Shown here: piece after piece, positions 17,556-50,416 of the stretch | How the letters are laid out: every line of letters starts with the position of its first letter | How positions within the stretch are numbered: the first letter of the stretch is position 1 | DNA from: Pomacea canaliculata | Lineage: Eukaryota; Mollusca; Gastropoda; Architaenioglossa; Ampullariidae | DNA length: 64,000 nt | Reading direction: 5' to 3' | NCBI RefSeq assembly: GCF_003073045.1 | Contig: NC_037593.1 | Span: forward strand, 11,146,735-11,210,734 | Notes under the pieces: model-generated | Told to the model about the DNA's origin: nothing | What the model saw: the letters and a program-made list of their open reading frames with translations, nothing else | The model's database searches: none | Position numbers and translations under genes: made by a program

Positions 17556-20500
17556 TTAGAAATGGATACACTCATTACTAGCATCCGGGTGCATTATGTC
17601 CAGTCTGAATAAATTAGCTTGGATCGTGTAAGCCAGACGCACCGGGTCATTAGTTGATGGCCATGAAACACGACGACAGCGTTGTCTCTGTGTCCCGAGT
17701 TCTTTCTGGTGGGGCTTGGCGATGGTGGAGGGGCTTAACCCTGGAGTCGACATCCCAGGGTCGTTACCAACAGAAGAACGTTTATCAGTAGTCCAGCTTC
17801 CGTTGGAGGACTCCTGGCACTGAACTCCCTTGTCGGAGGTGACAGGGTTAGGACAGCTTTGAGTTCGAGACGCTTGTTGTCTTCCCTCGTTCAGAGGCCA
17901 CTCTCCGACTGAGTCATGGACGATGCCAGAATCCGAGGTCAGTGACCCGTGACGGTCTGGGGTGTTCTGCCTTGTTACCTGGTCTCTGGGAGGCAGAGTG
18001 TAGGTGGTGATGTGGAAAGTTTTGATGCCCAGCACTCCGCTTTTATTTTTACACACCTTGCGGTACTGGATGTACGTTAGTAGCTGAAACACGCATGCGA
18101 ACAGCAATGGTCAAACATAGCACAGACTAACATAAAATGCGGAAATATATTTAAATTCAAACGACAAAGATCTGTCTAGTCCCTTCTGGCATATGCCAGG
18201 TTGTATTTGAATTATTCTTAAGTTATTTTGGAAAAAAATCACAACAGTAGCACGTGAATGTTTTGTACTAATTGTTGAGATGATTATTGTGATACTACTG
18301 CTACTACTACTACTACTTCTTTTGCATTAAACAAGTATTAAAGAGCGTATTTGACTAATTAAAAACAGTGTAATATTAAACGACACTGATGCAAAATACA
18401 AGAAAAACGTGACACAAATAGAGATATAAGTAAAAAAGAAAGAAAAACAGAAGAATGAAAGAGATAATGAGATAAAAAGAAAGATATAATAATAACGAAA
18501 GAAAGCGACAGAAAGAGAGATACAAAAAATAAAGATGAAACGAATAAACAAAATGATGGAAAGGACGAAAGAAAAAGGAACGAAAGAAAACTAAAAAGAA
18601 TAAAAAAAGACATTCTAAACAAGACTAATCATATCTAGGAGTCATCGTAAGGAGCAGTATAACACGGACGAGGACTGCAAGGCACGCTCCTTAGTAACAA
18701 GGAATGGGTTTCACTTCGGCTGCTGATAAAACCAATTACAAACGTGCAGTCTCCTCCTTCTCCTCATCATCATTACACCAACAATAATAGACCAATAAAC
18801 AAAAAACAAAGAAACCAATGGAAAATTTCCAAAGAAGCAGAACCTTAGGAACAAAGATGAAGCACTGGGTGAGCGTTGTGGCGGCGAAGACGATGACGGA
18901 CTGGATGAGAAAGTTGACGTGAGGAGGCTGGGTAGTGGTCAGCGTGAAGATGATGCCCAGACTGCCCAGCACCACCACGTTGTAGATGCACATGCCGATC
19001 CAGCGGGAGTCGTTCAGCTCCGGGATGGACGTCTACGAGTGAAGGACAGACTTAGGGTACAGGCCCCGTATGCAAGAAACACCGTTAGCCAATCGTAGCG
19101 ATAGAGCCTTTCGGTCCGAAAGCTATAGCAGCGATAGTCTCCCAACTAACGTGGTAAGCAGGGACACACCGATAGAGCTCCACTAGCTTTCGGCGCGGGA
19201 AGGCCGTTCTATAAATAGCTTCCGGGTAGGCCCAATTTTCATGCGCTACTGCGCATGTATTTGTTTTAAAAGTAGCGTTTACTTTTTCTCCCTGACGATG
19301 TCCTAGTTGCAGAAAAACGGGAAACGAAACGTATGCGAAAAGCCAATTTCAGTGACATGGAAATAAAAATTTTGTTAGAGGAGATATCCATGGAAGACAA
19401 AATTCTTTCCAGCTGCTTCTCCAACAAAAGAACGATACCCCCCCCCCCCAAAAAAAAAAAACAAAAAAAAACCCACCAAACAAACAAAACAAACAAAAAA
19501 AAAAAAAAGAAATTTGGAAAAAAAAATCGCGGCCAAGGTGTTGGCAAGCAGGGTGGCTGTTCTGTACCAGAAATAAAAGATAAATAGATCTACAAAATAG
19601 ACAATGCTTCAAAAAAAAAGCGTTAAGTAGCGTGAAGTTGGAGTGCGCGGCGTGATACTCATTACATTATTGTAGTATATATTGTTATATGATACGTGGC
19701 ACTACATGGCATCGCTCGGAATTGCTATTATTACTAGGCATGGCATCACACAATGTTACACGGCACTACATTGTTTTTGCACTACACTATATTGCATTAC
19801 ACACCATAATATTACATGAACAATCGTAACATTGGTTAAGATAAGGTGAAAATTTATGGCAAGCAGCCATTGCTGTGTGTCTTAACTATCTATCTATCTA
19901 TTCCTCTTTGTGCATCAGGTTGCACATAAGGCCTCAACCAGAGTCCGCCACCGATGTCGATCGGCTGAAACCCGCTCTAGGTGACCCCATGTCCAGCCCT
20001 TTCCTTTCATCTCCCTTTCCACTGTTCTTCTCCAAGTTTCCTTTGGGCGGCCTCGTTTTCTTCGGCCGTCTGGAGTCCATCGTAGGGCGACTCTGGAAAG
20101 GTCTGCTGTCTGCTGGCGGAGCACATGTCCAATCCATCGCCAACGCCTTCGTTGAACCTGCGTGGTGATGGACTCGGTTTCACTTCTTCGGTGGAGTTCT
20201 TCGTTGGTGATGGTGTTTGGCCAAAAGATGTTAAGTATGCGCCTGAGGCATCTGTTTTGGAAGACGTCAAGCTTGTTACTGATGGTTTTGGTCATCTTCC
20301 AAGATTCTGATCCGTAAAGGAGGGTGCTGATCACATTTGACTTGAAGATTCTCAGCTTGATCTTCTGGCTGATGTTTTTTGCCTTCCATGTGCTCCTGAG
20401 TGAGGCAAAGGCCTGACTGGCTTTCGCCAGTCGGGCTCGAATCTCCACCTCCGCATCCCCGGTGTTTGACATTTTGGACCCAAGATAGGTGAAACTGTCA

Positions 20501-23500
20501 ACTTCCTCAATCTCTTCTCCATTTAGTTTGATGCTGTCTTGGACTCTGGCGTTCACTCTCATACTGTTAGTCTTTTTTGTGCTGACCTTCAACCCAAGGT
20601 TTCCAGCTGTTTCTGAGAAGGCCTTTGTTTTTTCCTGCATGTCTTGGTGGCGGTGTGACAGCAGGGCAATGTCATCAGCAAAGTCCAAGTCTTCCAGTGC
20701 GTTGTTGCTGTCATAGTCATGGTCCATCTGAGCCCTCTCCTCTCGCTGTCGGTGGAAGTCTTCATGATCCAGTCCATGGCCAGGATGAAGAGGAACGGCG
20801 ACAGAATGCAGCCCTGCTTCACCCCGGTACTGACGTTGAAGGGTCTGTGAGCTCCGTGTCACAGACAACCTGGGATTTGAAATCGCTGTACAGCATTGCA
20901 ATGACCTGAACAAGTTTTGCAGGGACTCCGTAATGCCTCAGGATCTTCCATAAGGACTCGCGGTGGATGCTGTCAAAAGCCTTCTCCAGGTCGATGAAAT
21001 TGATGTACAGCGGTGTGTTCCATTCGTTGCTCTGCTCCAGAATCTGTCGCAGAATGAAGATGTGTTCGGAGCAGGATCGCCCAGGGCGAAATCCTGCTTG
21101 CTGTGGTCGGAGGTCTTCTCAAGAGTTGCCGTCAGTCTTGACAAAACAATCTTGCTGAAGACCTTGCTGGTGAGGGAAAGAAGTGTTATGCCCCTCCAAT
21201 TATTGCAGTCTCCAAGATCTCCTTTCTTGGGTAACTTGAAGATGAGCCCTGTCTTCCACGCAACAGGGACCTGCCCTGATTCCCAAATTTGCCTGAAGAT
21301 TTCAGTCAGCTTGGGAGCTGTCACATTCACGTCTGCTTTCAACATCTCTGCTGTTATTCCATCTGCCCCTGGTGCTTTGCCGCTCTTCATTGTCTTGACT
21401 GCTGCTGTCACTTCTTCCAGGCTTGGTGGGTCTGTGCAGATGTCAAGGTCTATAGCTGCTGGCTGGATGTCTGCAAGCTGAGGGGGATCTGGTCTGTTCA
21501 GAACCGACTCAAAATGCTCCCTCCAGCGCTGTAGTTTTCCTGCCTCTCCCTCAACGACATTACCGTTCACGTCTTTCACTGGCACATCACTGTTCTTAAA
21601 CCCGTTGTTTAGCTGTTTGTTTATCTTGTACAGTGTCTTCAGGTCATTTTTACTTGCTGCATTTTCTGCTTCATCTGCCAGTTTCTCTATGTGATATCTT
21701 TTGTCGGTTCTTGTCATCCTCTTTACCTCTTTGTTCAGTTTTGCATATCTTTGTCTGTGTTGTTCCTTCAGGCGTTCAGATCTGGTGCTGTTGATTCTTT
21801 GTTTGGCTAACTTTCTCTCTTCTATCTTCCTCCATGTCTCTTCTCTGATCCACTGTTCTTTCTTTTTCCGTTGGAAGCCCAGTATTTTCTCTCCTGATTC
21901 CTGTAAGACTCGATTGAAGTCGTCTAAGGTCATCTCTTGTTGGTCTCCTAGTGCCTGGAACCTGTTCTTTACTTCCATAGCAAAGGCCCTTTCGGTGGCT
22001 GGATTTTTTAGTTTGCCGGAGTCCACTCTCTGCTGACGTGCCTGTTTTCCTCGTGATCGACGCAGCTTCAGAGAAACTGTGGCTATCACAAGAGTGTGGT
22101 CACTGGCAATGTCTGCTCCTCTGTAGGCTCTAACATCTTGAAGTGAGCTCCTCCATTTTCGGTTGATGATGACATGTCTATCTGGTTCTTTGTGATCCCA
22201 TCTGGTGATGTCCATGTTGCCTTGTGGATGTCTTTGTGTGGGAAGAGTGTGCCTCCAATCAGTAGGTTGTTTTCTTCACAAAAGTCTGCCAGTCTCTCTC
22301 CGTTGTCATTGATGGTTCCGATTCCATGTTTGCCCATGACATGCTCCCTGCAGGTGTTGTCACTTCCCACCTTGGCATTGAGATCGCCGATGATGAGCAA
22401 CATGTCGTGGGCTGGAACGCTTTCTGAGGCTGCCTGGAGCTGATCGTAAAAAGCATCCTTGTCTTCTGCCTCAGAGTCATTTGTTGGTGCATAGCAGGCT
22501 AGCACTGTCAGCTTGGTGTACTTGAATGGAATCTTGCTCTCAAAAGCCTGGGTCCATAAGGCTTCCATTCCAGCAGTGCCTTTTCCGTTTTCTTGTTGAG
22601 GAGTAGAGCTACTCCTTCAGAGTGCTGAGCGTCTGATCTTCCTGAGAACAAGATGGTATGTCCTGACGCTAGTCTCCTCTTTCCCGTGCCGGTCCATCTG
22701 ACCTCACTGACTCCCAGGATGTCCAAGTTGTAGTTGTCAAACTCCTTGACTAATTGGAGCATCCTGCCAGTCTGGTACAAGGTCTGGACGTTCCAGCACC
22801 CCACCCTCAACTTCTGCCTCGGCTTCAGTAAATCCACTGTCGGGGCGCCAGCTCCCTGTCGGTTTGGCTGTCGTCCGTCATTAGTCCAGTCTCCTGGTGT
22901 GCTTCATTACCTTCGCCATCTGTGACGAGTTCTCTGGTTTTAGTTTCTGTAACAGGATTTTTTTTACATGGTGGGGTTGTTAGCCCTACCACAACCTATT
23001 TTACCTCTAGGTGAGGTGTCCACCTTAGTCGCCTCTTACGACATGCCTGGCTGGATGGCAGGGACCCTATTCTTGCAATGCTTGCTAGGCAAGCATACCC
23101 CGGGGTCCCACAGGGGACATGTGTGTCTTAACAGTCCACAGAAAACATGCCGAATCGTGACATTTTTATTCGACTTCAAATCCCTTTACTGCTTCTTGCT
23201 TTCTGTTTTTAATCTTTTTACCCCAGGACTTATAAGGGTAAAATATCACCTGACCATTGGGCAGGGAGTGAGGTGGTAAAGATTGCACTTACCCTGGGGG
23301 AACTTTTTTGTGAGAAAGAATATATATCCTTTCCCTCCCCAAACGCTTCTAGGAATCAGGTTTTCATTCAACACGAGAATCACCTCTATGGAAGCGAAGC
23401 ACATCCGGGTTAAGATGTCAGTTCTGTAATTACCCGGATATCTGTTTCTAGTATATAAATTAAATGGACAACCAACTAACGAACATAAAGATAAGTTAAG

Positions 23501-26500
23501 TAAACCCCACCAAAAAAAAATTGAAATGAGAGAATGATAACGCCACCTTGCGGGTCTGCCAAGCCAGAAAGACCCCAAAGAGGATGAGAAGAGCCTGCAG
23601 GGAAAGTATGGCGGCAGTAAACTGTTCCATGTACAGCGAGCGACACACCAGGCTCTGCTCCTGCACCGCGTACTCGCCTACGTCGATCTGCGCCACACAG
23701 AACGAGATCCGCACTGAAAGGAAACTTAGACAGGTGTTATTGAAAGAAGCTAATAAAAATAATCATCATCCTCCACCATCACCCATCATCCATCCATCAT
23801 CATCCGTCCATCATCATCCCATCCATCCATCCAACCATCCTCATCCTCATCATCAAGATAACAACAAATTAGCTCCAAAAGGAATGTTAGCTTTCACGCC
23901 AAGCTGTTCGTTCATTTGTTCGTTCATCATCTCTTCAAATGAACCAGCAGCCACCGCGGCCTCTCCATGTAACGATCACCCACTGGGTTGCCGACGTCCA
24001 CGGGGACCACGGTGATGTGGTCCAAGACAGTTCTCAGAACGAGCACGCCCAAGTTCACCACCACCAGCGCTCCCACGGTCAGGAACAGACGGCTGTCGCG
24101 CAGCACCTGCCATGAACAATGAGACGAGACCTGTGTCATACTAGTGCCTGAGCTGTGCCTTCAGACCTCTCATTACGAGTAAATTACATGGTGTAACAGG
24201 TATCAGGTGTAACGGGTGTATAGGTGACAGGCGCGTGCATAAAACGTATGCAACACTGCAGTAAGGAAAAATGAAAAAGAAAAGCAGATAAGCAAGGAAC
24301 GAAAAAAAAAAAATGCAGTGGAGTGCAGAGTCTGTGAGTCGCAAGTTGACTTTTGCCCGCGAAAAATATAAAGATCGAGGGAACAGAGGACGATTTTTCG
24401 ATCTTTTTAATTAAAGAGTTTGCTGCAGGAGGTGCTGGGCGTTGCTGTAGTCATCAGCTACAAGACGAGGCCGAGGAGATTACGTCATGTTCTATTTTTA
24501 ACCCGCACCCGGCAACCTTCCGCCATTTTGACACCTATGATTTTTTCTGGTTGTTGCCTACCCTCCCTTCTTCAACCTCCCCCCGTAGTTAGCCGTTTCT
24601 TCAGTTGTTCTCTCTTCTCTTAATATAAAAGGATGCTTGTTCTTGCCTACCGATTCCTTTACTCTAGAGAAGGTTCTGGTTTGGAAGAACTGACAGCTTT
24701 TCTTTTAGGGGACTTGCAGAGGGTGAGCTTTTAGGAAATATTTTCTTCTGGAAGACATTTTATTTGTTCACTGACACTTGGCTGCTGGGTGCATTACAGG
24801 GGGTGTAGCAAGGGCAGAAAAGTCGAATAATGTGCGGTTTGAAGTACTACAAACGGCTGGCAGCGTGACCCCTACTAATGAGTGCTTACCTTTGACTTGA
24901 GTCTGACACTGGCGGTCATGATCTCATAAACCCGCCATGTCTTGGCGAAGAGGGCTCCATAGGCAAGGGAGAAACCGAGGATGAGAAAATACTGCCGCAG
25001 CTGAAACCGTGCAACGCATTACACAGGACTGAAATATCGGTTAAAACGCACGCGCGCACACACACAGACGCTCACGCACAGGTGAATTTTGTAAATCTTT
25101 AAGGTCTTTGATGCCATTCGGTACCTTTAGTAGCGAGAGATTCCAAAGACAGATGACTGAATGAATAAAGAACAAAAGGAGGAGCACACATTGATTGATT
25201 GATCGAAGGCATAACCACCGCTTACGTAGCAAAGGACACGCAGTCCTTCGGCGTTGATGTCCTCCATACCGATGGTGCAGTAGACGAGGAGGCAGCCCGC
25301 CAGGATGAGGTTATTGATGTTTGGGGACGACATTTTGATGAGTCTGCCGACAGCCAGCGGACACTAAGCAAGCTACACACTGAGACATTCATCGTCGTCT
25401 CCACATACCTGTCGGGAACATCTGTGCCTACCTTGGTGCCTCTTGAACTTACAAAATGATGTGAAGTACCTTATAGACCCCACCAAGTAAACTACCCAAG
25501 CTGGACAGAATCTATACCGACCCACCAGTTACACAACATATAACAGAAAACAGAAGATATATTGGTTTTGAAGAAGTGCCCCTAACGCAAGCAGATTTCT
25601 AAAAGTCCTTGCTAACAGGATGAACATGGGTTAGCTTTGACTAAGTCTGGAAAAATATTTAAGCGATAGTTGTATAAACACTTTGCCTACCCATATCGTG
25701 TCCATATTTTTCTCCGGTTAATAAAAGAACACTCGATACACAAGAACAACGTGGGTATCACTCCAGCCACGTCAGATTTTGTTAGCGCATGCACCCTGAT
25801 TTAACCAATTCAGATCGAACTCTATCAGTAAATAAACTAATTTTCTATCAACTTATAATTATGTTTCTATAAATGTCTGTTAAACTGCTACTTTTAAAAC
25901 GTACAACTGTGTTAGTCAGATCCGTACATACGCAAACCACATTTCGCACTAAATGGAGGAAGTGTGGGAGAGATAATGAAAATGGTTTGAATTGGGAGAG
26001 GCGAAGAAGGCAACCAGAATACCCAGATAAAACACCAGATGGCCACCCTTGAGAACAGATGTTACAGTTAGTGATGTTCTTGTATTCCGAGATTAGATCC
26101 TCACTACACCGCCCTTCCACCCTTTGACCATACCTTCTCCCCCTACCCCCGGTCCCCCACCCTATCTTTTCCTTCGGCAGTGCTACCCGTTCAAAGCTTC
26201 ACCTTCCGACATCTGTTCCACTCGTCTGTCCACACCGCACGTCATCAGGTGCAACCTTGGGGAGGGGAAAGGTAAACACACACGCACGTGTCACGCAGGC
26301 TCGACAGGTGGTTGTCATGGTCATGACCGGCGTTTTGCACGTGAGAACCGTTGCGCTGCCAGTCTTAATATTTTGATATTGCATTGATGATTTGATATTG
26401 CGGTAGCTTTACTAATAATGCAGAAATTAACAGACTTGGGGTATGTGTATCAATGCCAACATGCCTGTTTAGATGTCGCACTGGGTGTTATGGCACAGTG

Positions 26501-29372
26501 CGGACAGCAGTCTCATCACCTAGGTGTTAACGTCTTGAAGGGGTTTACGTTGCCACTGGCATGTAAGGTAAGCTGCTCTGACGTCACCTACCTGACTTTC
26601 CGGCAGATGAGGTTGAAGGCGAGAAACATAAAAGACAGAAGGATCCCCGCCGCTGCCATCGAACTCAAACCGATGTATAGTTGCCTTGGCAACGGCTTCC
26701 ACATGTAGTTCGTGCGTTTGTATGAATAAGGTACTTTACCTGCAAGGAAAACATAAAAACGAACAAATAAAATATTGAAAAAATCTACTTTACATTTATG
26801 GGCATAATAAACTAATGACGGTTGCACAAAAGACCTGTTAAATCACTCAGAAAATGTCGGAAGTGTATAAAAGTGTCTGTGAAAAAGGTGAATGAATTCA
26901 ATTTCATGTAAGGGCGCGGTGTTGCTAAGGGATGTTGTTATATCCTGATCATGATTTTGTCCGAAAACTAGATGACAAATCTCCGACATACTTGTAATAA
27001 AGGGGAAAGGTCTTCAAATATTTTGAACAGCAAAATCAATCAAGAAAAACAGATCGAGAATCCAAAATTCGATTATTATCTAAATGCACATCTATGCCAG
27101 TTGCACATACACTTATCAGAAAAATCGAACTCCTAACAAGACACCAATTATCAAGAAATCTCACATAAAATGTTCCACAGAATTATTTAAAAAAAAAACC
27201 CTTCAAATGAGAACCAAGATTTCAAAAGATTAAAAATCCATTTTGATGCAAAGGTGATCCTTTCTTCTTAATACGCTTACTATTCACTTTGGTTTTAAAG
27301 AACTTGCACAATTTCAATACATATTTGAAAAGAAATTCGTAACTAAGAGCCTTCAGTTTGAGGGAACAAAGAAAAGAACTTTCCGTTATGATATTTCTTA
27401 CTATGTTTTCACAAAATATTTAAGCTTGAAGTAATTATTTGCGGTACCACAATATTTATTCATGCATACACTGAGCTTTTACTTGCGAAAACTATAGTTT
27501 TTTTTCTGTAACCTGCCTTCGTTTCTAGGGATTTTCCTAGACGATAAAATATACATTTATACCCGATTTGTTCTACAATAAAAGTTAACAGCAATAGAAA
27601 TCGGCAGGAAATTGAAGCTGGCTTTAGTGTCTTTGATTTCACCAACTCCCATCAAACAGCTTCACTTAAAGAAAGGATCCATTAAGGCCTCTTCACTTTA
27701 TGGCAGTTCATCGATATTCTGGTTAGTGTTCAGGACTAATAGCACTATAAAACCCTTCTTGAGTGCGATTTCTCGAATGAAAGACCCCGGGACTAGCAGC
27801 AATGGTCGACAACAAAACTGGAACAAGACCATTGGAGAGAAAAATCAATCAGTGTAACGAGAGCAGTAAATGTACAAAACTTTCCCTTTGCTGAGTTTCT
27901 TCCTGCTTGGATTAGAGAAACGTTCAGCACAGGTAGAAGTCACAGGTGTGTTTCCTTCCTCTCTTCATTGGTATCATTACTCGTGCAGAGCTCCTTCATC
28001 CCAGCTGTACACACTTCGGACAAGCACTCATTCTCTCGTTCACGTGCAAACACGTGTGCACGCTCTCTCTCTCTCTCTCTCTCAACTACACGTATGCACG
28101 CAGATGTACACCTTTATTCACAAGCACCAGATAATGATGGCTGCACTTGTTTCCTCCATCGTGTACTCATTGTGTTACTTCGATTACCATCACCTCCACC
28201 TACTCACGCACGCATTCATGCATGCACACGAGCTCAAGCACACACACACAGAGGAGATAAGAGAGTGGGCGGGAGAAGGCCATAATTATAGATGCTAATT
28301 TCCGTCCTTTGCCATTTCCACAAAAAAGTTACCTACCGTCTCTCCACCGGATGTTGGCATCAATCCAGACCATTTTCTCCGGACACCCGTTATACATGCC
28401 CACCTCCGCAGTGCTGCAACCTACAACAACCCGCTTCGTAAAATGTGTTTGCAAACTCTAAACCAAAATCTTTGCAGTTAAAAGGTTTTAGCTTTACACA
28501 TGATGTTGACATGGTTTTCAGGCTAATGATGACAGGGTGCCATCAGGGACAGGATAATTCACAACTTCATGCTAAATAAAGAGATTTTCAAAGTTAAACA
28601 AAATGTGAGTTAGTCATACAGCTCGAATATAAAACAAAAAAATGTGAGTGTATGCGTATATATAATATATGTCTGTGCGCGCGTGCGTGCATGTTTGTGT
28701 GTATTTCTTTGTGAATTTACTCTCTCTGCCTCTCCTAAATCTCCTTTATGAGCTCAGCTCACTGTCTAACGAAGTTTATCTTTAGTTCAAATTACTAGAT
28801 TGTGTACTAGATACCCTTCTACCAATAGTACCATGCGCAGAAAAAAAGGTCAAACCGGTAAGTCCCAAATGTTCCCGGGTAGGACTAATTAACATATGAT
28901 CTCAGCTCTCCCATTGGTTGTATCCTTGACATTGTACATTTCTGATGTCAGTGAGACTAACCTCTTTCTGCTTACTTGATACCCGTATCTTGCGAACGGA
29001 AAGGGTGCTGTTAGCTCTGGATCTGCTTAATAGCTTGGTATCGAGCTCAACCCAGTGAGTCATTCAAATCCACCCAGGGTGAATCAAACAATATGGAATA
29101 ATCCCGTTAGCCCTTCTCACCTTCTGACCACGTGCTCTGACACGTTTCCTTGGACCACACGATTTCCGCCGGGCAGTCGTCGTAAACAGCAATCTTCACA
29201 AAGGTGCCATCTGCCACAGAGCAAGGACATTAACTGTGAGTCACTCTTGTTTCCGAGGGTAGCTTCAAGGTAGGCTGTAGTGACACCTTTTTTCGTGACA
29301 ACGGGTGCTAGTCTTATTAAAATGCTGCTGTAAGGTTGAAAAATTTTATCAGAGGGTAGCGATCATCATCAT

Positions 29373-29417
<45 letters not shown>

Positions 29418-31570
29418 CCACCATCATCATTGCAGCACTCTTGCTCCTTCTATCATTCTAAGACATGCACATGTATCGGCAAACAAAGTTATTCATCCAT
29501 CTCTAAATGTTCATCAACAAACTTGGATGATTTGGACGATTTGTTATTATTTATTTATAGATTTATTGTTCATTACATTGCTAATAGATAAATAGCATGA
29601 AAGAATGTCTGACATAAATTACTTGATTACCACCTAATCATTACGCATACAGCCACACAAGAAGACAGGGAAGACAGCAAGACATGAAGACTCGGGTGGT
29701 TCTCTTACTTTCGTAATGAGAGTTGCGCTGGAACTGCCGGACCACTATCGTAGACATGCTGTCGCCCGAGCTGGAGAAGGAGATGTTTCCCGTGATGCCC
29801 TTGAATGATGTGTTCTTCATGTTGTGGAAAATGAGCTGCGCCATGGCCTCGTTCTCGTAGGTGAACTCCTCCAGACGGTGACCTCGACCTACGAGATGAC
29901 AGAGGAAGAGAAGAGAGGAACTAGCGGGACATGACCAACACATTCCTGATGTTTAATCCTGGCTTTGGCACATTTTTCAAACAGAGATAAAGAATGACAG
30001 GCTATAATGACAATAATTTAATTCTCATATCAACTAAACGGTTTGACGAAGTAAATTTACAACAACAATTAATTAAGTTATCTATGATTCTCTGGGGTTC
30101 AGGATGTGATTTAAACTTTAGGCGTGCAAGTCCATCCGGTTTGTTTTGAAGATCGATCTGCAGATTAAAAGGAAGCCCCTATCTCTCCTAACAGCAGCCT
30201 ACGAACAAACGATCCATCAGAAGCCATGACTGAAAACTGTTTCCTTGGTTACAGGTTCTCTTGACCTCTCGCGCTGCGCGTGCATATTACACAATAAACC
30301 ATCTACCGCACCTCCACCCACACTTGAACATGACACAAAAATATCACAGAGAGAGAGAGAGCGAGAGAGACGAGAGAGAGAGAACGCAAGTGCAAACACA
30401 CCTATTCACACAGGTGAACAGATATATGTGACCGCACGTGCAGAAGCAATCCGTCCGCTCCCTCTGCTGTTTAGTGATTTGTCATTTTTCTTTCTCTCAA
30501 TTTTCCTTCATGTCTTAACTTTCTTTATTACCTTCAGGTCCTGTCTTGGTGCCACTAGCAAGAGTATTTTTGAAAATACTTATTGCATACACATGAGCGC
30601 CATTTTCGCTTGGAAGCCATTGCTCTAACTACAGACTACCGCTTCCCCAGCCAATGAAACCATTATAAATATTACAGTTAAAGTAATTTAAAATAAGAAA
30701 TAGTCAAGGAAAAATAAAGCGCGAGAGGGGAAAGGCCATGTGAGAAAATACGAGCCATTAAAGTGTACCTTCAGCAAGGAGGTCAGTAAGTGTCCCGTTG
30801 AGGGCCAAAGCCACGGCCCACATAGCATCGTAGGCCAACGGAGCTCGATTGGAACCCGACAGGCTGGCATGCAGGTCACACTGACAGTCGTCCATCCATG
30901 CATCCTGGCGGAGTCTGTGGAAATGAGCGCAGAAGCGGCAATCAAACTCCGAGGTCGGCCAGCCGCTGATGGTGTCATTCATGGCCTCGTTGATGTCCAC
31001 GTTCACGCTGGTCACTGAGAAGTACCCGTCGATGACCTAGGAGAAGAGATCGAAGTATGGGAGGGGAGGGGAGAGGAGGGAGAGGTGACAGTAGGCTTGG
31101 TTGTAAACTGTGGAGAGGTCTGTAATCACTTTTCTATCCCCTACACTTACAATAACGATTACGATTGCGATTATGCACTCATAACCAGCCAGTTAATACC
31201 GTTTCTCCTCTGACGAGTGGATCAGTCACTGATCTGTTATTATCCTCCGCTGTTTGAATAGATTGGTTATTATTGATGTTTTCGTGGCTATTATAATTGA
31301 TGAGCTTTTTCCAGTGTCCAATTTCCCTGAGGATCAATATTGTTATTGTCATTCTCATAGTAAAATCCTTTCTCTGGAGTAAACAAAAGACTCGAAACTT
31401 ACCTGCAAAATTTCGTCCACCGTACAGTTGACGTCTCTCCTGAGATACCATTTTCTGTCATAGAAGCCTGGGAAAATCCACACGATGTGAGGTCCATAGT
31501 ATTCGATGTTAAACGCCTGTCGATAGAAACCAACCAGTTGGCTGATGTCAATCACATTTTCGAGTTCGAG

Positions 31571-31612
<42 letters not shown>

Positions 31613-34600
31613 CCATTTGTATATCGAGGGCGGAACGGGTGGGTGAGGGTGGGGTAAGTATTCACACAGATTTGGGGAAATAGTTTCTGGAGCAGTAGCT
31701 GGGCCCAACCAACTAGGAAGAAATCCCATCACACTTTACTCAACCTTAGCGTTTGCCATGCAGTATTCTAAAATATTAAGAGTACATTGAATTTACAGAT
31801 GTATATAACTGTAAAGCAAACCCAACAAACGAAACCATCATGAATTGTTAAGCGGGGTTAATATTACGGTTGGGAAATTTTATCGTATTGAAATGGTTTG
31901 TGGCTTCTATCAACGCGCAAACAAAAAAGTATAAAAATAGTTTTATAATAGTTAGCGTGGACAAAATATTTTAAAGCGGTTAAAAAACTGGGGCTGATGT
32001 ATTGAACAGATCTGAGAGGACAAACAAGTGACGGTTGACATGTCCGTGCATAAACATGAGAGAATATTGAACGACAGGATTAGAAGAGGACGGAAGTCAG
32101 GTCGTGCTAAGAAATTAAGCGTGTTTCTTGAATACACAGTAGCATGTACACTAGAGCTCACCTTGTATTGTTACATGTACACTGGAGCTCACCTTGTATT
32201 GTTACATTACACTGGAGCTCACCTTGTATTGTTACATTACACTGGAGCTCACCTTGTATTGTTAAACATTACACTGGAGCTCACCTTGTATTGAAACATT
32301 ACACTGGAGCTCACCTTGTATTGAAACATTACACTGGAGCTCACCTTGTATTGAAACATTACACTGGAGCTCACCTTGTATTGAAACATTACACTGGAGC
32401 TCACCTTGTATTGAAACATTACACTGGAGCTCACCTTGTATTGAAACATTACACTGGAGCTCACCTTGTACTGTTACATGTACACTGGAGCTCACCTTGT
32501 ATGAAACATTACACTGGAGCTTAAAACTAGAGGCTCACCTCACAACTTGCCTGTCTGGCCTGCTCCTCATAGCAGGCAACATAGATTATACGTGCGTCAT
32601 GATTCTGTAATTAAAGCAACAAACAAAAATATAATTTATAAAACAAGAAGAATTATTATTATGAGAATGTTATTGTGAAATATGTATTTTTGTAGTATTT
32701 TGTTAGTGGCTGTAGCATTGAAGCAAGTACATATTTTTCAATCCTACATTTTTATGTGGGAGGACATGGAATAAAACATAAAATATAAAGTTTTGCTGAC
32801 ATGTCAAGGGTTTGTTTGTAAATAGCAGATCTGATTACTCTTTCTCTCTGAGAGAGAGAAAGAAAACATGCTCTTTATTTCCTAAGCTGTAACTCATGTA
32901 ACTAAATAAAAATGAGCATTACAAAAATCACAGGATTTATTGAAATCATTAAGCAAGACAAAATTCACTTGTTTACTTAAAACCATCTAGGTTCTTTTCT
33001 CAATCTTAATTGAACACTTTTACAAAACTGTTGTAAAATTATAAATTTACATAGTATCCTATTAGTATATATTATTATCAGCATTTTAAATATAATTTAT
33101 AGTTATTTACATTTCAAAATCAAGAGGTTTAAGATATTAAGAGCGACAGCAACACAGATTTATTCTACCTAAATGTCAGACAGTTTAAGTGTGCATCGGA
33201 TAGTTCCTGGTCTCACCTTCATGCTTCTCACTGCTTGCCTTGGATCACTGTCAAAGTTTTCGGTGTAATCCAGTTTTATGTTGCTTTTCTCCAGCGCCTT
33301 CTTCATCAGCTCCACACCCTGGTCACACACACACACACAAACGCGTAACCTTTATGCATAGTTGTCTTGACCATACAATTTTCTCATAATAAAAGCAAGT
33401 ATTGCAGCTACTAACACTAGAAACAATGTTTGTGTATTTTCTCTTTAATTAAAAACTGTGAGATACTTTTAATGATTTGGTTAAGCTTTTTGATCTTTGT
33501 AGTTCAGTGTAATACATGTAATAATCTGTTACTATTATTTACAAGGGAAAACAACACAATAGTCCTTATGTGATTGAGGTTTTAAAGATTTCTATGTCGG
33601 TGCCATTTGCTTTGTGGGGGACGGTGTCCATAGTCTCTCTCTCTCACACATTCCACAGCACTCTAAAGACTCAAATGGGAACTCTACAGCTGGACTACTT
33701 AAAAAATACGCTGGCCACACGGGTTTCGAACCCGTGAGCGTGTGCGGCTTCGGAAGCCTTTTGAATCGTCGTGCTCTAACTAGTAGACTAAATGCTTCCA
33801 TTCTACTATTTTTTTCACTGATCGTGTCGTTCACAAGATGGTGTGTTGAGAGTGCTGTGTGAGCGGGAGACTTACTGTTGTGAACACTTGATAGTTTTGC
33901 TGAATAACCGACACGTTGGTCCAGTTGAAGTGGACAAACAACTCGACCGACACAAAGGACAGGACGTTTTCAGGGGCTACAACTCTGAAGAACCAAGGGA
34001 ACACATCCTTGTTTGACAGCGTGGGCGACAGGGCAGAGTAGGTTATCTGAAGAAAAATAAAATCACACACACACAATGGTATTTATACTCTACTTTATTC
34101 ATTAAATGCTCACTAACTGGGTAAAGGTTTATTTGAGTCTGCTTGAATAGCTTCCCTTAGTGCATTTAGGTCAGAGGTCAGAACTTAGGTAGATCAGAGG
34201 GTGGTGATTAAACCACTTGAATGATGAAGGCTAAAAATTAGCGACACAGGAAGAGACACAGAGAAAACAAAACCCAGGTAACTCGATCACGTGATGTCTT
34301 TGCTGACCGTTCTCACCTGTACTAGGTTCCACTTGCGCGACACCTGTGCTGTGATTTCGGTGACGTGTGAACAGGTTTCTCCGAGGACCATGAGGACGGT
34401 GGCGCTCTTGTTGTACAACCTTTTGTACACCTCGTTTACACCTTCTGCCGACTGGCACTGGCAGTTTAAAAGTGTACTGTACGTTTTAAAATGAACGGCG
34501 ATTGGTTTGTATTCTTTACCCTAATTTCAGGTTAGAGGGAGGAGGTAAGTTTTAATTATTTAATTACTTTTATTGCCTCGACCTGCATCAGCTTAAAATA

Positions 34601-35408
34601 ATGCGAATTACCATATGTTTGAAAATGAAGAAGACGTAGGAAACTTTTATTGAGCTTATTGTGGTGTTAGAATTCAAATATTAGTACATGTAGTGTATGT
34701 ACATGTACATAATGTAACATTAACCAATATTATGAATACAAATATTACAGACAGTTTGTAGTACATTCATGATGCAGTCCTTGGCAGTAAAGGTGTTTAC
34801 CAAGCAGGAAAGGTGAAACTAAATTGTCTTGCCCATCAATAATCTGTTGTGATAATTTTTTTTCTTTCTTGGCTGGGATAAACTTTGTGTCTGATATGTG
34901 ATAATAAAGTTTTATTATTGTCTTCTATTTTTTGGATTCTTTTCTTCAAAGTCCTAGACGTTCCTTTACGTGGTTCCTGAGATTATTTCGAGTATTTATC
35001 ATCAGGGAATCACCTCGTACCAAGGAGATGTTTCTGGAATCTACTCGTGTGTGATAAACATCATACCTTTGTGTCTGCTGTATCCAGCTCAATGGTGTAG
35101 CCAGGAAGCATGTCCGCTCGTTTGTTGATGTCCTCGACAGCCATCTCGGCGGCCATTTGAAATGCTGTGCCCGCGGGGTACTCCCCGGTCTTGCCAAACA
35201 AGCCCAGCACCAGCAGCCTACTCTCAGAGCCACCCGTCAAGGCACCCGACGTGCTCTGGCGAACTGACAACGGGGTCGATGCTGCTGGTGATGTCGGAGA
35301 CGATAAAAACAAAGACTCGTTGATCGTACTGATAGTCTGAGCACTGGCCAGCAAGAAGAGTATTTTTAGAGGAGACCTGAGGTAAAGTTTAGTGACCATT
35401 CTAGCCAT
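17556..35408 (-). CDS. GABBR2-like: GABA-B-type class C G-protein-coupled receptor subunit, type 2-like, 17 coding exons
   Basis: Coding exons: 35067-35408, 34317-34457, 33876-34046, 33217-33318, 32539-32604, 31403-31516, 30769-31036, 29709-29888, 29121-29210, 28337-28420, 26592-26739, 25226-25343, 24890-25000, 23980-24106, 23547-23713, 18844-19032, 17556-18083. All splice phases agree and no frame break is seen over about 2.9 kb (981 residues if all exons are used). Exon 1 has a signal-peptide-like start and the first lobe strand; exons 2-8 form the Venus-flytrap domain (Cys at FDCRF and NCTVDE are visible); exons 9-10 encode the linker; exons 11-16 carry seven membrane segments. LIKMSSPNINNLI in loop 1, FAKTWRV after TM3 and NDSRWIGM before TM6 resemble vertebrate GABBR2 more than GABBR1. 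GABBR2 does not bind GABA itself but couples the heterodimer to Gi/o. The 175-residue tail shows no coiled coil. A LINE sits in intron 15. Confidence 0.9.
19874..19886. repeat. left target-site duplication of the LINE
   Basis: The 13 bases TGTGTGTCTTAAC here are repeated exactly at 23120-23132, bracketing the LINE. Such a duplication is expected of target-primed reverse transcription. Confidence 0.85.
19887..23119 (-). mobile_element. full-length-looking non-LTR retrotransposon, RTE/BovB-like LINE
   Basis: The element is 3.2 kb, on the minus strand, flanked by identical 13-bp duplications, and ends 3' in a GATA microsatellite tail (TATC on plus, 19887-19901). After a 5' leader of about 280 bases, the coding part begins with an APE-type endonuclease from 22837 (VGCWNVQTLY, VSEVRW, YAPTND, GDLNAKVG, TWTSPDG, SDHTLV). 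A reverse transcriptase follows, with GKAPGADGI, a LPKKGD..NWRGITLL block, KQGCILSP, and the catalytic box FADD (in DLDFADDIALLSH, near 20.68 kb). A C-terminal region has YGSESW and RRWRWIGHVLRQ. Frame changes are seen near 22.55 kb, 22.19 kb, 21.1 kb and around 20.8-20.95 kb, so it is not coding-competent as written. It is in the same orientation as the host gene. RTE clade is assigned by resemblance to BovB. Confidence 0.9.
23120..23132. repeat. right target-site duplication of the LINE
   Basis: Exact copy of the 13 bases at 19874-19886. It fixes the 5' end of the minus-strand LINE at 23119. Confidence 0.85.
26740..28336. other. intron 10 of the GABA-B receptor gene
   Basis: About 1.6 kb between the second linker exon and the TM1 exon. 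It is AT-rich, with a CT-rich run near 28060-28085. No exon or element was recognised. Confidence 0.6.
28337..28420 (-). CDS. GABBR2-like: GABA-B receptor linker exon B (homologous pair with exon A)
   Basis: This 84-base exon is in phase 1 at both ends (acceptor TTGTTGTAG, donor GTAGGT). It encodes CSTAEVGMYNGCPEKMVW followed by IDANIRWRD. It aligns with the vertebrate GABBR2 segment containing VGEYN and the IRFQGSEPP turn before TM1, so it looks like the ancestral linker exon. The neighbouring exon at 29121-29210 encodes a clearly related peptide. Using this exon alone, exon A alone, or both keeps the frame. Confidence 0.8.
29121..29210 (-). CDS. GABBR2-like: GABA-B receptor linker exon A (homologous pair with exon B)
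   Basis: This 90-base exon is phase 1 at both ends (acceptor CTGTGGCAG, donor GTGAGA). It encodes GTFVKIAVYDDCPAEIVW followed by SKETCQSTWSE. It shares the pattern (V/I)(G/A)(M/V)Y(N/D)xCPxx(I/M)VW...W with exon B 700 bases downstream. Both join to the same flanking phases. It is probably an exon duplicate that can substitute for exon B or be used together with it. Confidence 0.8.
29373..29416. repeat. (AATC)n microsatellite
   Basis: About eleven tandem AATC units, inside intron 8 of the GABA-B receptor gene. Confidence 0.9.
31575..31611. repeat. (GT)n microsatellite in intron 5 of the GABA-B receptor gene
   Basis: An uninterrupted GT run (CA on the coding strand), about 60 bases upstream of the exon 6 acceptor at 31516-31518, hence close to its branch-point region. 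Confidence 0.9.
32149..32520 (-). repeat. 30-bp minisatellite in which every unit carries a consensus 5' splice site
   Basis: About a dozen units of roughly 30 bases run from 32149 to 32520, most of them near-identical. On the minus strand (that of the receptor gene) each of 12 units contains CAAGGTGAGCTC, a near-perfect match to the donor consensus MAG|GTRAGT. The array begins within about 20 bases after the real donor of exon 5 (GTGAGCC from 32538), in intron 5. If an array donor were used, translation would stop at TAG, 32529-32527, three codons past the normal exon end. The last unit on the right is degenerate. Confidence 0.9.
33700..33800 (-). repeat. tRNA-like sequence, probably a SINE head or tRNA pseudogene
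   Basis: On the minus strand the piece has a perfect T-arm (ACGGG-TTCGAAA-CCCGT), a variable-arm-like hairpin GGCTT-CCG-AAGCC, and a D-arm TCTA-CTAGT-TAGA. No anticodon stem or acceptor stem pairs properly, so it is not a working tRNA. Its head GGAAGC..TTAGAGC recalls the SINE at 5285 and 63172. It lies in intron 3 of the GABA-B receptor gene, about 75 bases downstream of the exon 3 donor. Confidence 0.6.
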
Positions 35409-44827: not shown

Positions 44828-47775
44828 AATCAGTTTACAAGCTGTTCATTTCTTTGATTATAATTGACCAATATATATGCAGATGCATGAGCAAGTGACT
44901 GTGGAGTAGTGTAATAATAAGTTAACATTTTCACAGGGAAAATTTTTTGTGTGTAGAAAGGCTGCAGAAGAGCTAAAATAACATCATCTGGATAAAGACA
45001 CTTCCAAGTGGACCATATTTTGCAATGAATAGATATTGTGGAATGAATTGTGACTGTATTTTCACAAAGTTTTGCAATAGTCCTGTTCTGGCGTTGATTT
45101 TATAGCGTATAACAGCAGAGTAGTTAAGATACTAGGCACATTCAACATGGGACAGCATATGCACCATAACATTGAACTCTGGAAAACAGCACAACCCTTT
45201 ACAAAGCTATACCCTCACCTCTCGTCCTCTTCAAACGATATTAAGTGCGACAAGACATGATTGACTAATGGGTTTGTGCGAAAGAAAGAGAAACGGCACA
45301 ATTAATCAATGGCTGACTTTAGGGAGCTGGCAAAAGCTAGAGGAAAGGAAAGAGCTGAGCTAGAGATCAACCAATGTCAAGACCATGTCAGCTCGGGTGG
45401 CTTCACAACTCACACCAGACAAATGCGCGTTCTTTCAAAACACAACAAAACGATTGCCGGAGGCTCCCCAATTCTCCAATTATTCACACATCTTTCTCTC
45501 ATGTTCTTCTTTACAATTTTCAAACATCAGTAAGTGCTAATACAATTTCATAAGCAATAACAGAAAAAGATGTCATACCTCGTCTAGGCGAGGTGAATCC
45601 AAAAGCGGGTCAGTGCCGCGCCGCATCTTGCGTCGATCGACACTGTACCCTCCTCTACTGTACACAAATCTCAACTCGAGAGATTTACAACAAGAGGGCT
45701 TGCACTACCTGTGAGAAGACTGCACTACCAGTGAGAGGGTTTGCACTACCTGTGAGAGGGTTTGCACTACCTGTGAGAGGACTTGGCACTACCTGTGAGA
45801 GGACTGGCACTACCAGTGAGAGGACTTGGACTACCAGTGAGAGGACTTGCACTACCAGTGAGAGGTAGACATTCGACGCCAAGGCCAGAAAACGTTCTCA
45901 AGGGAGGAGAACGTCTGCTGGGTTCGCGCAAAAGTCGGAAAACTTATTGTTCGTTCAAGTCGCATTAGTCGTCGGATAATGTTCCTGGACTGGGACAGGC
46001 TCTCTGCGCCGGAGAGAGTCGTCAGTCTCTGACGAGGTTTGGCAGATTCGAGGGCAATCATAAGAGTGCTGTGAAACATCCGACATCATTGTGAAGCCAC
46101 AATAGCAAGAACAGATTTATCATCAGAGCTAAGTTAATGTGCATATGAGTGCAAATGACAGAGATGGATGTAGCAGCACTGGAATAGTGGAAGTACGATG
46201 GCACTGGGACTCCCCTAGACGAGTCTTTACATCGTTTTCTCATCCTGACTACAAGCGCTACAATCTTTTCTTTAAAACATTAACATTTAAGCGCAATTTT
46301 TTCTTAGTCGTTACAGTTTCATTCGGTAGCTGATGAAGCAGTTGTCAAGATTATGTTTATTTTTACAGCTTGCGAATAAAAGAAGTAATAGTCTTACTGT
46401 TGGTGGCAGGCCGTCAAGTACTTTTCGTTAGTGTCCAGTGGGGATAAGTGTACTGGACACCTGTACAATTAAATAATTCAACTGTTGGCCAACTTAGTTG
46501 AAGCTGTTGTTGCGCAGATAAGAGTGTGGCTTTCTGTGATAGTGTAGAAAAATAAACAAAAATAATCTTTACATTAGTTTTACACCTTTGTGCAGCGTGT
46601 AGCCTGCTGCACCATCTGCTGCTTTAGACTAAAAAGAAAAAAAAATTGTGATATCAACATAAGTGTTGTCAGGCGGTCAGCTTGAGATCACGAGGTATGA
46701 TTTAGGGAAGAGAAAGAACGCAGAGAAAGGTGTAAAGGTCATGTCACAGGTGGTAAACGAGTGCGGGTGGGTCTGTGGGGTGGGTGCATGTCATCACTGA
46801 TGAAGCACAGCCTGTGGTCGGGTGAGGCTACAGCGTGTGATATAAAGGCATTTATGTGACACAAATGATACAAAGACTAGAAGCACTTGGATGCACTTGC
46901 CACCTGCCCACCTACCCCCAACTTCAAAGAGAAACACACACACACACACGTTCATGTATACTCACGTGCAGACAACAAATACACAGATTTCAGTCATCTT
47001 GCTGGCGACTTAAAAGAAAATCCAGCTAGAATGTATCACATCCCCTTAAATCTTCCGGCATCTTTAGCATACACTTACTTCAAGCTGATTTGACTGAATA
47101 GCTGTTCTCCCACAATGCTTTAGTCGTAGTTGGAACTAACGGTCACTAAATATGTCAAATAGGAAACCCTGTCTGTCTGTCAAGCACTTTGTATACAAAA
47201 CACTATAAAGAAATACCAGTAATATATAATATCACTGTATGTAAATACACACTTGTATCTACTAGTGCTAAACCCAACAGGGTGATGTGTTTCTGAAGTC
47301 GCTGTTATTGTGTTGTTTAAGCTACATTTAAACATTCGGTGTTTATGAACCTCAGTAACTGTAGATGTTACATCTATCCCAAGCATTTTGTGTCATCACG
47401 CATGTCAGAAAAATTACAAAATTGACCTTTTCTTCCTCTGAAGTTTCCGGAAGGTGTATCCGGAATAAAACTATTCAATGAAGTCTGAGCTTCTGGGTCT
47501 CACGGTCCCACGATAAACACATCTTTGGTGTGATATCGAAAGATTTTGGTGTAAGACATACAGAAAGAGAGATACTGGTTTGATATAAAAAAATGTTGGT
47601 ATCAGACATACAGATACAGAGCTGTGTTCAGGATTATACACCACATACATGACTAACATCCTTGTGGCGGAAGCAGAAAATTCATGAATATTCAGTCGCT
47701 GTGTGTACATGTCTACTTGGTATCGTAGCGATCCAGAAAGAACATCCTTGATGAGCCCAACATGATGACACTGCA
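44828..47775. other. intergenic DNA with a minisatellite
   Basis: No exon is supported. Apart from the minisatellite at 45690-45868, only random open frames are seen. Confidence 0.55.
45690..45868. repeat. minisatellite, about eight units of 21-23 bp
   Basis: Units of the form GCACTACCTGTGAGAGGACTT or GCACTACCAGTGAGAGGACTT repeat head to tail with one- or two-base length changes. All three frames stay open, giving false repetitive peptides. It lies about 2 kb upstream of the receptor cluster. Confidence 0.85.
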
Positions 47776-50416
47776 TTGAGAAAGCAAACCACAGTTATCT
47801 TGTTCAGCTCGGAGCAGCCATGTCTGACACCAACAGTCTCACCGGCAACATGCACAACGAGACATCCAGCGGTCGCCACACGTCTACAACCACTCTTTGC
47901 TTCTCGAGTACAACAAAATGTATGCCGAGCTCTCCTCCCGGTGATCATCTACATCGTTTTCATGATAGTTCTCGGGACAGTGGGCAACTCCGTGGCGCTG
48001 GTCGTCTACTACAAGCGGTTCAAACCCAGCTCCACCAGGACATTCATCATGTCTCTCTCCGCCATCAGCCTTCTTGCAAGTCTCGTGTGTTTCCCGGAGA
48101 AGATCGCCGAGTACTGCCTGCATTTTACCTTCACTAACCGCTCAGCGTGCCAGGTCTTCTCCTTCTTGCGAGGGTTCACCACCTACTCCATGGGACTGAC
48201 CCACACCGCCATGGCCTTTGACCGCCAGCGTAGGGTATGTTCGCCCTCCGTCCGGCAGTGGAAGATGCAGGACATCTACATTGCCGTTGGCATGTGTGTC
48301 GCTCTGAGTGTCTTCATCAGCATCCCTATGTATGTCCTGTACGGCTCACGGACTGTGGACTGGACCAGTAACGTCACTGGGGTCATGTGCGGCGAGGACG
48401 ACAGCTACGTGAGGACCACAGGGCTGATATTATACTACGTGGTCCTGAAGGGAGTGTTTGTTACCGGCATGGTCGTCATAGTTATCAGTTATGTGAAGGT
48501 TGGTCTCAAGGTATGGGAGCACAAGAAGCAGCTTGAAAAACGATATCTCGCGACATCTTCCTGTCGGCACCAGGCTAGAGACCGCGACAGGGAAAGCTTT
48601 CAGGTGCCGGCGATGTCACAGCTGGAGGTCACAAGGACTGATAATAACATCACGCACGGAGACAGGTGCTCCACGAGTTGCGATCTCGACTGCACTGGAA
48701 GGAACCTGACAAGCTTCGAAATAAACAGCACATTTAGTTGTGGTGACAGAGCTGAATGTCACGTGACGGGAAAGCTGTATGACGTCACCTCGTTTGACCA
48801 TGTTGTGCCGAACCCACCTTGTGACTGCCTTAAGCTCGTGACATTCACACCACCTAGTGTTGCCCACTCGAGTGCACTCTCGCAACCGAGTCGTCGGACC
48901 TTGCGATACCTGTGCTCCATGAAGTACGCATGATGGAACAGGCGGGTCCAACATGGAAGCTGACACGTCACCTCAGGTCGTGACACATGTCACCAATTCG
49001 TTATTCTGTCTGTGTTTCCTGTAGGTGGGGCTCATGAGCCTGACATTCCATTGTGCCCAGCGTCAGCAACAGACTCGGAGTCTCACGAGAGGACACGTGA
49101 GGTGTTGGGGGAGTCTCGGACAGGACTCAGTTCTCAAGACGTTGATACCATTGAAGCTGCTGTCGAAACAGCTGAGACTGTAGTCGACATAACCGAAATA
49201 ACTGTCGACAAAAGCGACTTTTACCGTCACTACATGCGAATCAAACATACAGACAGCTGCACTCCACAGACTCTCTACAGAGCACCGACACACGTTTACA
49301 ATTTGACAGACACAGACAAACTATACTTGAGCCCACCTACACAACAACCGAACCTACTTCCTCTTCATTCGAGCCCAACGTTGAGACGCACCACGCACCC
49401 CGGGTAACATTGGCGGTAGTGTGACCGGCACTGCAGAATCCACACGTGACTACCAGAAGCAGCGCCACTGGACAGCCACACTGCTCTTTGTCTCATCTTA
49501 ACACTAATGCCAAGGTTACAGGCGTGTCATTGCCCGATGTTCGCAGAACTGGCGAACCGACCGTTAAAATACAAACTGCCGCTGACGTCAGCAGGAGCAC
49601 GTCTGTTCCTGTATTCTTACTTCCTGGCATCATGAGCAGAGAATTACGTGAGGTTACTAAAACCGGAACTGACCTGGCAAGCAGCCCGTCCTTTGTCGAT
49701 GACAGGATGACACCGAGCGACCGAGCCTGCGACTCACTAGACGAGTCCATGGAGAGGTTAAGGAGGTCACCTGCACTTTACAGAGATAAGCCTTTGACCT
49801 CGATGACTTCCATTTTTGCTCCAGTCCTCGGAACAAACCATGCACCACAGCATCAGATATCCAGCCGACCAACCCTGCCTCCCATGCAACCGTCACTTCA
49901 CAATATGTCGGCGTCGGCTTGGAGGAGATGTCAGAGGGCGGGTGCGAAGAGATTTCCTTGCATCCTGAAGTGAACCGAGGTGGACCTGGGTGCATTCCTT
50001 GTCCAGGGTGTTGCCAGGCTGGACTCGGAACTTTGCTGTGCTGCATCCTGGGGAGGATGAAATCTTTGACAAAACCTTCGCGAGATCGACGACACGACAG
50101 GCGGATCCCCGCGAAGAGGATTCCCTCCCGAACGACAGTCACTCTCGTGGTGATGAGCGGGATTTTCATTCTGAGTTATCTCCCTACGCTAGTCATATTA
50201 GTTTTGCGCTCGATTGCAGGTCTATCAGAGAAGTCCATGTCGACAGAAATGTTAAACTTGATTCAGTTCTGTCTGTTGTCCCATTACATCAACTTCACCA
50301 TCGGCCCCATCGTCTACAGCGTGTGCAGCGTTCGATTCCGACAACAGCTGTGCTACTTCCTGTCTGGACTGTGTAAGAAGCGTAAACTCCGGGAGGAGCT
50401 AAGCTTGAAATTATGA
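47776..50416 (+). CDS. rhodopsin-class GPCR, cluster member 1 (frame broken in loop 3)
   Basis: An open frame from 47776 to 48933 encodes TM1 (IIYIVFMIVLGTVGNSVALV), TM2-TM5 and the beginning of intracellular loop 3. TM6 (TTVTLVVMSGIFILSYLP), TM7 (INFTIGPIVYSV) and helix 8 (RFRQQL) lie in another frame at about 50100-50416. The ~1.6 kb between encode a very long loop 3 spread over several frames (roughly four changes: near 48.93, 49.02, 49.42 and 49.81 kb). Signature motifs: DRQRRVC in place of DRYxxxx, loop-2 CGED, and GPxxY for NPxxY. The sodium-site Asp of TM2 is absent. No intron restores the frame. The true start may be the ATG at 47820 in another frame. AATAAA follows at 50504. The family resembles the lophotrochozoan orphan receptors often labelled CCK- or orexin-receptor-like; the ligand is unknown. 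Confidence 0.75.

Follow-up and report, generated by a model that had tools for sequence, protein, structure and literature searches.

Two homologous, phase-matched exons for the end of the Venus flytrap in a GABA-B-like receptor gene of Pomacea canaliculata, probably spliced as alternatives

A receptor gene on the minus strand of a 64,000-nt stretch of the Pomacea canaliculata genome (C4:11146735-11210734, the whole of which is called the window here) carries two neighbouring exons, 9A and 9B, that encode related peptides. This raises the question of which part of the receptor the two exons encode, since when both have been kept, and whether one or both of them enter a transcript. A preliminary description of the locus had regarded them as duplicated linker exons of a GABA-B receptor gene and as candidates for mutually exclusive splicing.

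Gene structure and receptor family

The gene was modelled with 16 exons between positions 35408 and 18844 of the window (Table 1). Exon ends were placed at AG/GT sites compatible with the reading frame and with the homology, and the C-terminal tail lies outside the model. In a profile search the protein matched PF01094 (Venus flytrap, 174.1 bits) and PF00003 (7tm_3, 159.5 bits), with the family 3 7TM domain C-terminal to the Venus flytrap as in class C receptors, and no cysteine-rich domain was found between the flytrap and TM1 (three Pfam families in total at E 0.001).

Table 1. Modelled exons of the receptor gene and the intron between exons 9A and 9B (positions in the window)
Feature	Position	Strand	Remarks
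Exon 1 as modelled	35067..35408	-	First Met chosen, true start not secure
Exon 2	34317..34457	-	Gene model
Exon 3	33876..34046	-	Gene model
Exon 4	33217..33318	-	Gene model
Exon 5	32539..32604	-	Gene model
Exon 6	31403..31516	-	Gene model
Exon 7	30769..31036	-	Four-cysteine loop (CxxC...CxC) common to paralog L039
Exon 8	29709..29888	-	Constant, flytrap upstream of slot, ends phase 1
Exon 9A	29121..29210	-	90 nt, phase 1-1, peptide NGTFVKIAVYDDCPAEIVWSKETCQSTWSEG, isoform residues 462-492
Intron 9A-9B	28421..29120	-	700 nt, holds short dispersed repeat
Exon 9B	28337..28420	-	84 nt, phase 1-1, peptide SCSTAEVGMYNGCPEKMVWIDANIRWRDG, residues 462-490
Exon 10	26592..26739	-	Constant, stalk (KVPYSYKRTNYMWKPLPRQ) and TM1
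Exon 11	25226..25343	-	ICL1-TM2
Exon 12	24890..25000	-	TM3
Exon 13	23984..24106	-	TM4, donor uncertain
Exon 14	23547..23687	-	TM5
Exon 15	18844..19032	-	TM6-TM7, end not secure

The best matches of the protein were the GABA-B subunits GB1 and GB2 (393.9 and 348.9 bits for the form with 9A, as compared with 105.2 bits for GPR156 and at most 69.2 bits for mGlu receptors), and by its sequence the gene belongs to the GABA-B receptor family of the class C GPCRs. The protein is far from both subunits, with 390-394 bits for GB1 and 349-359 bits for GB2 over about 700 residues. A reading of the gene as GABBR2 was given up, and an orthology to that gene rejected, as the GB1 score is higher than the GB2 score with either exon and a separate GB2-like gene is present on C3 of the same genome (one exon, 110.4 bits to human GB2 versus 52.6 bits to GB1). 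A GB1-like gene was found on C11 (one exon, 89.6 bits to GB1 versus 46.7 bits to GB2). Seven GABA contacts of GB1 are listed in the accessible text of PMC12499500, in the numbering of that paper: W65, S130, S153, H170, E349, Y250 and W278. In an alignment read by eye, S130 and Y250 are kept in the window protein and the other five are replaced (W65Y, S153L, H170V, E349R, W278F), so that the product is unlikely to be a GABA receptor in the sense that GB1 is one.

Several further elements were observed in and near the gene. The intron between 9A and 9B contains, at about 28847-28945, a short repeat that matches at least 25 other places in the genome. Intron 5 holds a minisatellite at 32147-32521 (30-bp unit, 12.4 copies) which on the sense strand of the gene comprises 12 copies of AAGGTGAGC, a good match to a 5' splice site, shortly downstream of the donor of exon 5; the receptor gene has no further copies, and the 12 are possible decoy donors. 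In the 4.5-kb intron 14, non-LTR retrotransposon-like open reading frames lie on the minus strand at about 19918-22903, and one of the two tested gave matches to RVT_1 (28.2 bits, weak and below the cut-off) and DUF6451. On the plus strand, opposite to the receptor gene, a rhodopsin-type GPCR (PF00001) is located at 47755-48930 and 49790-50413, with 68.9 bits and, for the second piece, 29.1 bits, just below the cut-off of 30.5.

The exon pair and the protein segment it encodes

Exons 9A and 9B are each GT-AG exons with an open frame, and the preliminary description was confirmed in their coordinates on the minus strand, AG/GT flanks, phase 1 ends and lengths divisible by three (90 and 84 nt). 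All four splice forms, with 9A, with 9B, with both and with neither, are open through the last modelled TM exon. The relatedness of the two peptides, claimed there as well, was borne out by a Smith-Waterman score of 46, which was reached by 2 of 20,000 shuffles, and by a scan of 32,526 open 31-residue windows on both strands of the whole 64 kb, in which the two are reciprocal best non-self matches (46 and 47). The next-best window scored 39 for 9A and 43 for 9B, so that by the window scan alone the margin of 9B is small; the latter match lies in intron 10 at about 25528 on the sense (minus) strand, where no clear exon shape was found, and is probably due to chance. As a control, 21 chunks of constant exons were compared with 31,781 windows, and none reached 46 with an unrelated window (highest score 44). 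A chance resemblance of 9A and 9B was rejected on the basis of the scan, this control and, above all, the same pair in a paralog. Similarity at the DNA level was not significant (169 of 2,000 shuffles), which indicates that the resemblance was kept at the protein level. In the introns from exon 8 to exon 10 no third copy was detected, judged by candidates of phase 1-1 and 60-150 nt in length (the next in rank scored 29), and a search of viral contigs with six peptide patterns gave no match.

When both exons are included, HMMER returns two overlapping alignments to human GB1 (6uo8_A), one with 9A at 384-402 and the other with 9B from 383, and this overlap on the same human segment means one slot and two exons. 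The bit scores of the best chain for human GB1, human GB2, fly GB1 and fly GB2 were 393.9, 348.9, 346.6 and 325.7 for the 9A form; 390.2, 358.9, 349.0 and 329.3 for the 9B form; 372.9, 340.0, 330.1 and 313.2 with both exons; and 366.2, 333.9, 321.5 and 311.1 with neither. Each one-exon form thus outscores the other two forms for 4 of 4 solved subunits, which is supporting and not decisive evidence, since any insertion of about 30 residues would cost bits and the penalty on the form with both exons is only partly specific. Of the two, 9B had been described as the one closer to GABBR2, and this is borne out with human GB2, for which the 9B form scores 10 bits above the 9A form.

The proposal that the exons encode the linker between the ligand-binding domain and TM1 had to be revised. 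The slot lies inside the solved flytrap construct 4mqe_A, the matches to which reach query residue 494, and it ends at residues 490-492. The linker, described in the text available from PMC7411975 as about 20 residues long and in that from PMC9360005 as forming a sheet with ECL2, corresponds to the stalk of about 19 residues in constant exon 10. The piece that would be swapped is therefore the end of the flytrap, its last approximately 30 residues, just before the stalk.

Conservation of the pair among paralogs

A search of the genome (24 contigs, 440,159,624 bases) with the window protein gave 63 matches with several GABA-B-like genes. The slot was scanned in the window gene and in seven paralogs chosen from the best matches. 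The scan was limited to exons that enter in phase 1 and have a length divisible by three, and the shared phase is consequently not an independent result there. The closest paralog, L039 (C6:1115000-1124900; 394 of 703 covered residues identical to the window protein), has two slot exons, A' at 5788-5871 and B' at 6138-6218 (together C6:1120787-1121217), in the same order as in the window gene, and this pair was found by tblastn without any phase requirement. The six other paralogs (L040, L042, L044, L046, L047 and L048) have one slot exon each, in a scan that a strongly diverged second copy in any of them would escape. The candidate is clear in L040, L042, L044 and L048; in L046 and L047 it is weak (score 27, with noise of 28 in L046) and was picked on the strength of its splice sites and because the two genes are nearly identical there. 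Judging by these six paralogs, the ancestral transcript probably had a single slot segment. In the GB2-like gene L052 on C3 one slot exon is readable (start 5307), the 3' phase of which was not fitted to the next exon, and the gene was left out of the slot-exon counts.

The window gene marks an expansion of GABA-B-like receptors in the snail. On C6, a tandem cluster of about three GABA-B-like genes at C6:1800325-1848739 is part of this expansion beyond one GB1-like and one GB2-like gene. L046 and L047, about 0.77 Mb apart on C6, are near-identical GABA-B-like genes whose slot peptides (L046 3672-3764, L047 4257-4349) agree at 31 of 32 residues, and this pair is a recent duplication.

In a tree calculated without the slot, from query-anchored tblastn rows of unequal coverage and without the C3 gene L045 (low coverage), the window gene and L039 stand apart from the rest with a local support of 0.88. 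Their flytraps, again without the slot, are identical at 207 of 396 positions (about 48% of the aligned residues differ). In the slot, 9A is identical to A' at 14/27 residues and 9B to B' at 13/26, as compared with 6/27 between 9A and 9B and 8/26 between A' and B'. The quartet joining 9A with A' and 9B with B' received 1999 of 2000 column bootstraps when complete codons were used, and 2000 of 2000 with peptides that had arbitrary junction residues. This grouping points to an exon duplication older than the gene duplication, and the simplest history would be an exon duplication followed by a gene duplication, after which neither gene lost either exon. No grouping is apparent at third codon positions (9A/A' 14/27, 9B/B' 11/26, 9A/9B 14/27, A'/B' 10/26), and pS between 9A and 9B is 0.54, lower than between 9A and A'; we read both as saturation noise in 26-27 codons.

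The comparison with A' and B' is one of paralogs within the genome of one species. Values of pN were 0.27 for 9A/A' and 0.29 for 9B/B', as compared with 0.04-0.30 for seven hand-picked constant-exon pieces (exons 1, 3, 6, 8, 10, 11 and 15), and those of pS were 0.81 and 0.96, saturated, as compared with 0.51-0.79. A pN like that of constant exons together with a saturated pS indicates continued selection on both copies in either gene. Such a retention of both exons is difficult to account for unless each of them is translated. The duplicated, phase-matched alternative exons of the preliminary description are thus well supported by the pair that L039 keeps under constraint.

The two cysteines attributed to each exon version are present in the window gene; in the paralog only that of the YxxC motif is conserved and the second one of each version is not. 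The YxxC cysteine is common to 9A, 9B, A' and B' and is present at that position in 0 of the six single exons. The four-cysteine loop of exon 7 is shared by the window gene and L039; L044 has no cysteines there and L042 has two (the translations of L040 and L048 were in another frame and are left out of this comparison). With either exon, the modelled ectodomain has 11 cysteines in the window gene and 9 in L039, whose protein was assembled from translations without its N-terminal end, which is an odd number in all four forms. The choice of exon leaves the count unchanged and moves only the second, unconserved cysteine. A role of the slot and loop cysteines in disulfides is possible.

Splicing of the pair and known systems

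Adjacent homologous exons of the same phase for one slot, with both copies kept under selection in the paralog pair, agree with the arrangement of mutually exclusive exons, and we estimate at roughly three in four the probability that 9A and 9B are alternative exons, probably used in a mutually exclusive manner. Two diverged copies of the slot, and the same two in the sister gene, suggest that the snail makes two receptor versions. Exon 8 would be followed by either 9A or 9B and this by exon 10, with one slot exon only per transcript; the two resulting receptors, of 768 and 766 modelled residues, would be distinguished solely by the piece handing over from the flytrap to the stalk and TM1. The acceptor of 9A has the highest score of 15 modelled ones and its donor is good; the acceptor of 9B is the poorest in pyrimidines (7 of 17), and only that of exon 2 scores lower. 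These strengths make 9A the likely default, and 9B may be the regulated choice; the still lower score of exon 2 means that a weak acceptor is no proof of regulation.

Exclusivity would not be enforced by a frame shift, as both lengths are multiples of three and double inclusion or skipping keeps the frame. Steric exclusion depends on a short intron, and the introns of 700 nt in the window gene and 266 nt between A' and B' in L039 are too long for it. Local RNA structure at the 9B acceptor gave no signal (z 0.18), and a comparison of the window gene with L039 revealed no conserved blocks in introns (E 0.46 for the best match outside exons). Nine splicing motif patterns were counted in introns 8-10. 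TGCATG, which we take to be a Fox-type motif, occurs four times in the window gene versus 1.2 expected (fraction 0.03 of 200 resamples), twice at about 110 nt downstream of 9B, and once in L039, elsewhere; GCACG occurs five times versus 1.1 expected (0.005) and once in L039. As nine patterns were tried and neither motif is conserved, they are a weak lead only.

A constitutive use of both exons, resulting in a doubled terminal flytrap segment and 796 modelled residues, would meet no mechanical obstacle, as the frame is open with both, and the exon order is the same in L039. We consider it unlikely: the doubled form loses 9-21 bits against the one-exon forms over four solved subunits, a cost that any such insertion would bring, and each exon keeps the start and the end of the slot, with a W near the 3' end, like the exons of single-exon paralogs, in which one copy is evidently enough. 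In a fixed tandem the inner ends would be dispensable, so that the kept ends count against this reading. Slightly less probable again is a cassette arrangement in which 9B is added to a constitutive 9A, or the reverse, and receptors with one and two segments coexist. The pyrimidine-poor acceptor of 9B beside the strong sites of 9A and the frame-neutral lengths would suit it, but the arguments against stacking apply equally, 9A and 9B are similarly constrained, and the match to solved receptors is about equally complete with 9B or with 9A as the only slot exon. That one exon is a dead relic, still intact in appearance, is highly improbable, given that both copies persist in two genes as diverged as these, with a pN like that of flanking exons and a saturated pS, a constraint that a relic would have lost.

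Under mutually exclusive use, the swap would tune the coupling of flytrap closure to the membrane domain, with the ligand pocket unchanged. According to the available portion of PMC12499500, the flytrap C-termini of the fly receptor approach each other from 46 to 31.5 Å on activation and the stalks move, and a change in the last flytrap residues could therefore alter resting activity, efficacy or partner choice. Changes in the linker were once reported as non-critical (PMC7411975), and later structures give the stalk a role together with ECL2 (PMC9360005), as far as the accessible text of both papers goes. It is conceivable, though very doubtful, that one gene supplies both halves of a dimer by splicing, the 9A form as GB1-like and the 9B form as GB2-like partner; that such halves would substitute for the two-gene GABA-B heterodimer is equally doubtful. 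Support for this idea is thin: for the human proteins, the gain is 3.7 bits on GB1 with 9A and 10 bits on GB2 with 9B, and for those of the fly the 9B form scores slightly better on GB1 and GB2 alike.

The receptor resembles the solved human and fly subunits GB1 and GB2 in its PF01094 and PF00003 domains, in that no cysteine-rich domain was found, and in having them as its best PDB matches; it differs in its distance from both, in the replacement of five of the seven GABA contacts and in the extra four-cysteine loop of exon 7. Alternative splicing of a GABA-B receptor gene is also known from GABBR1, for which the consulted part of PMC2987798 describes the N-terminal variants 1a/1b, 1c without exon 4, and 1e without exon 15, truncated before the membrane domain. 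The variants covered there arise from alternative starts, skipping and truncation, and none of them swaps homologous segments in a full-length receptor. Among the open-access papers listed as matches, we recognised no description of a mutually exclusive exon pair in GABA-B or other class C receptors. If confirmed, the pair would be a GABA-B-type splice switch between the ligand pocket and the membrane domain that leaves the pocket and the G protein face unchanged, and would offer a natural swap experiment on the transmission of flytrap closure. Exons 37a and 37b of Cav2.2, an example of tandem exon duplication in signalling genes, are likewise adjacent and homologous. They are mutually exclusive, and their isoforms have been described (PMC5405051, in the text available), whereas for the snail gene we infer exclusivity; both systems have two adjacent homologous exons for one slot of the protein.
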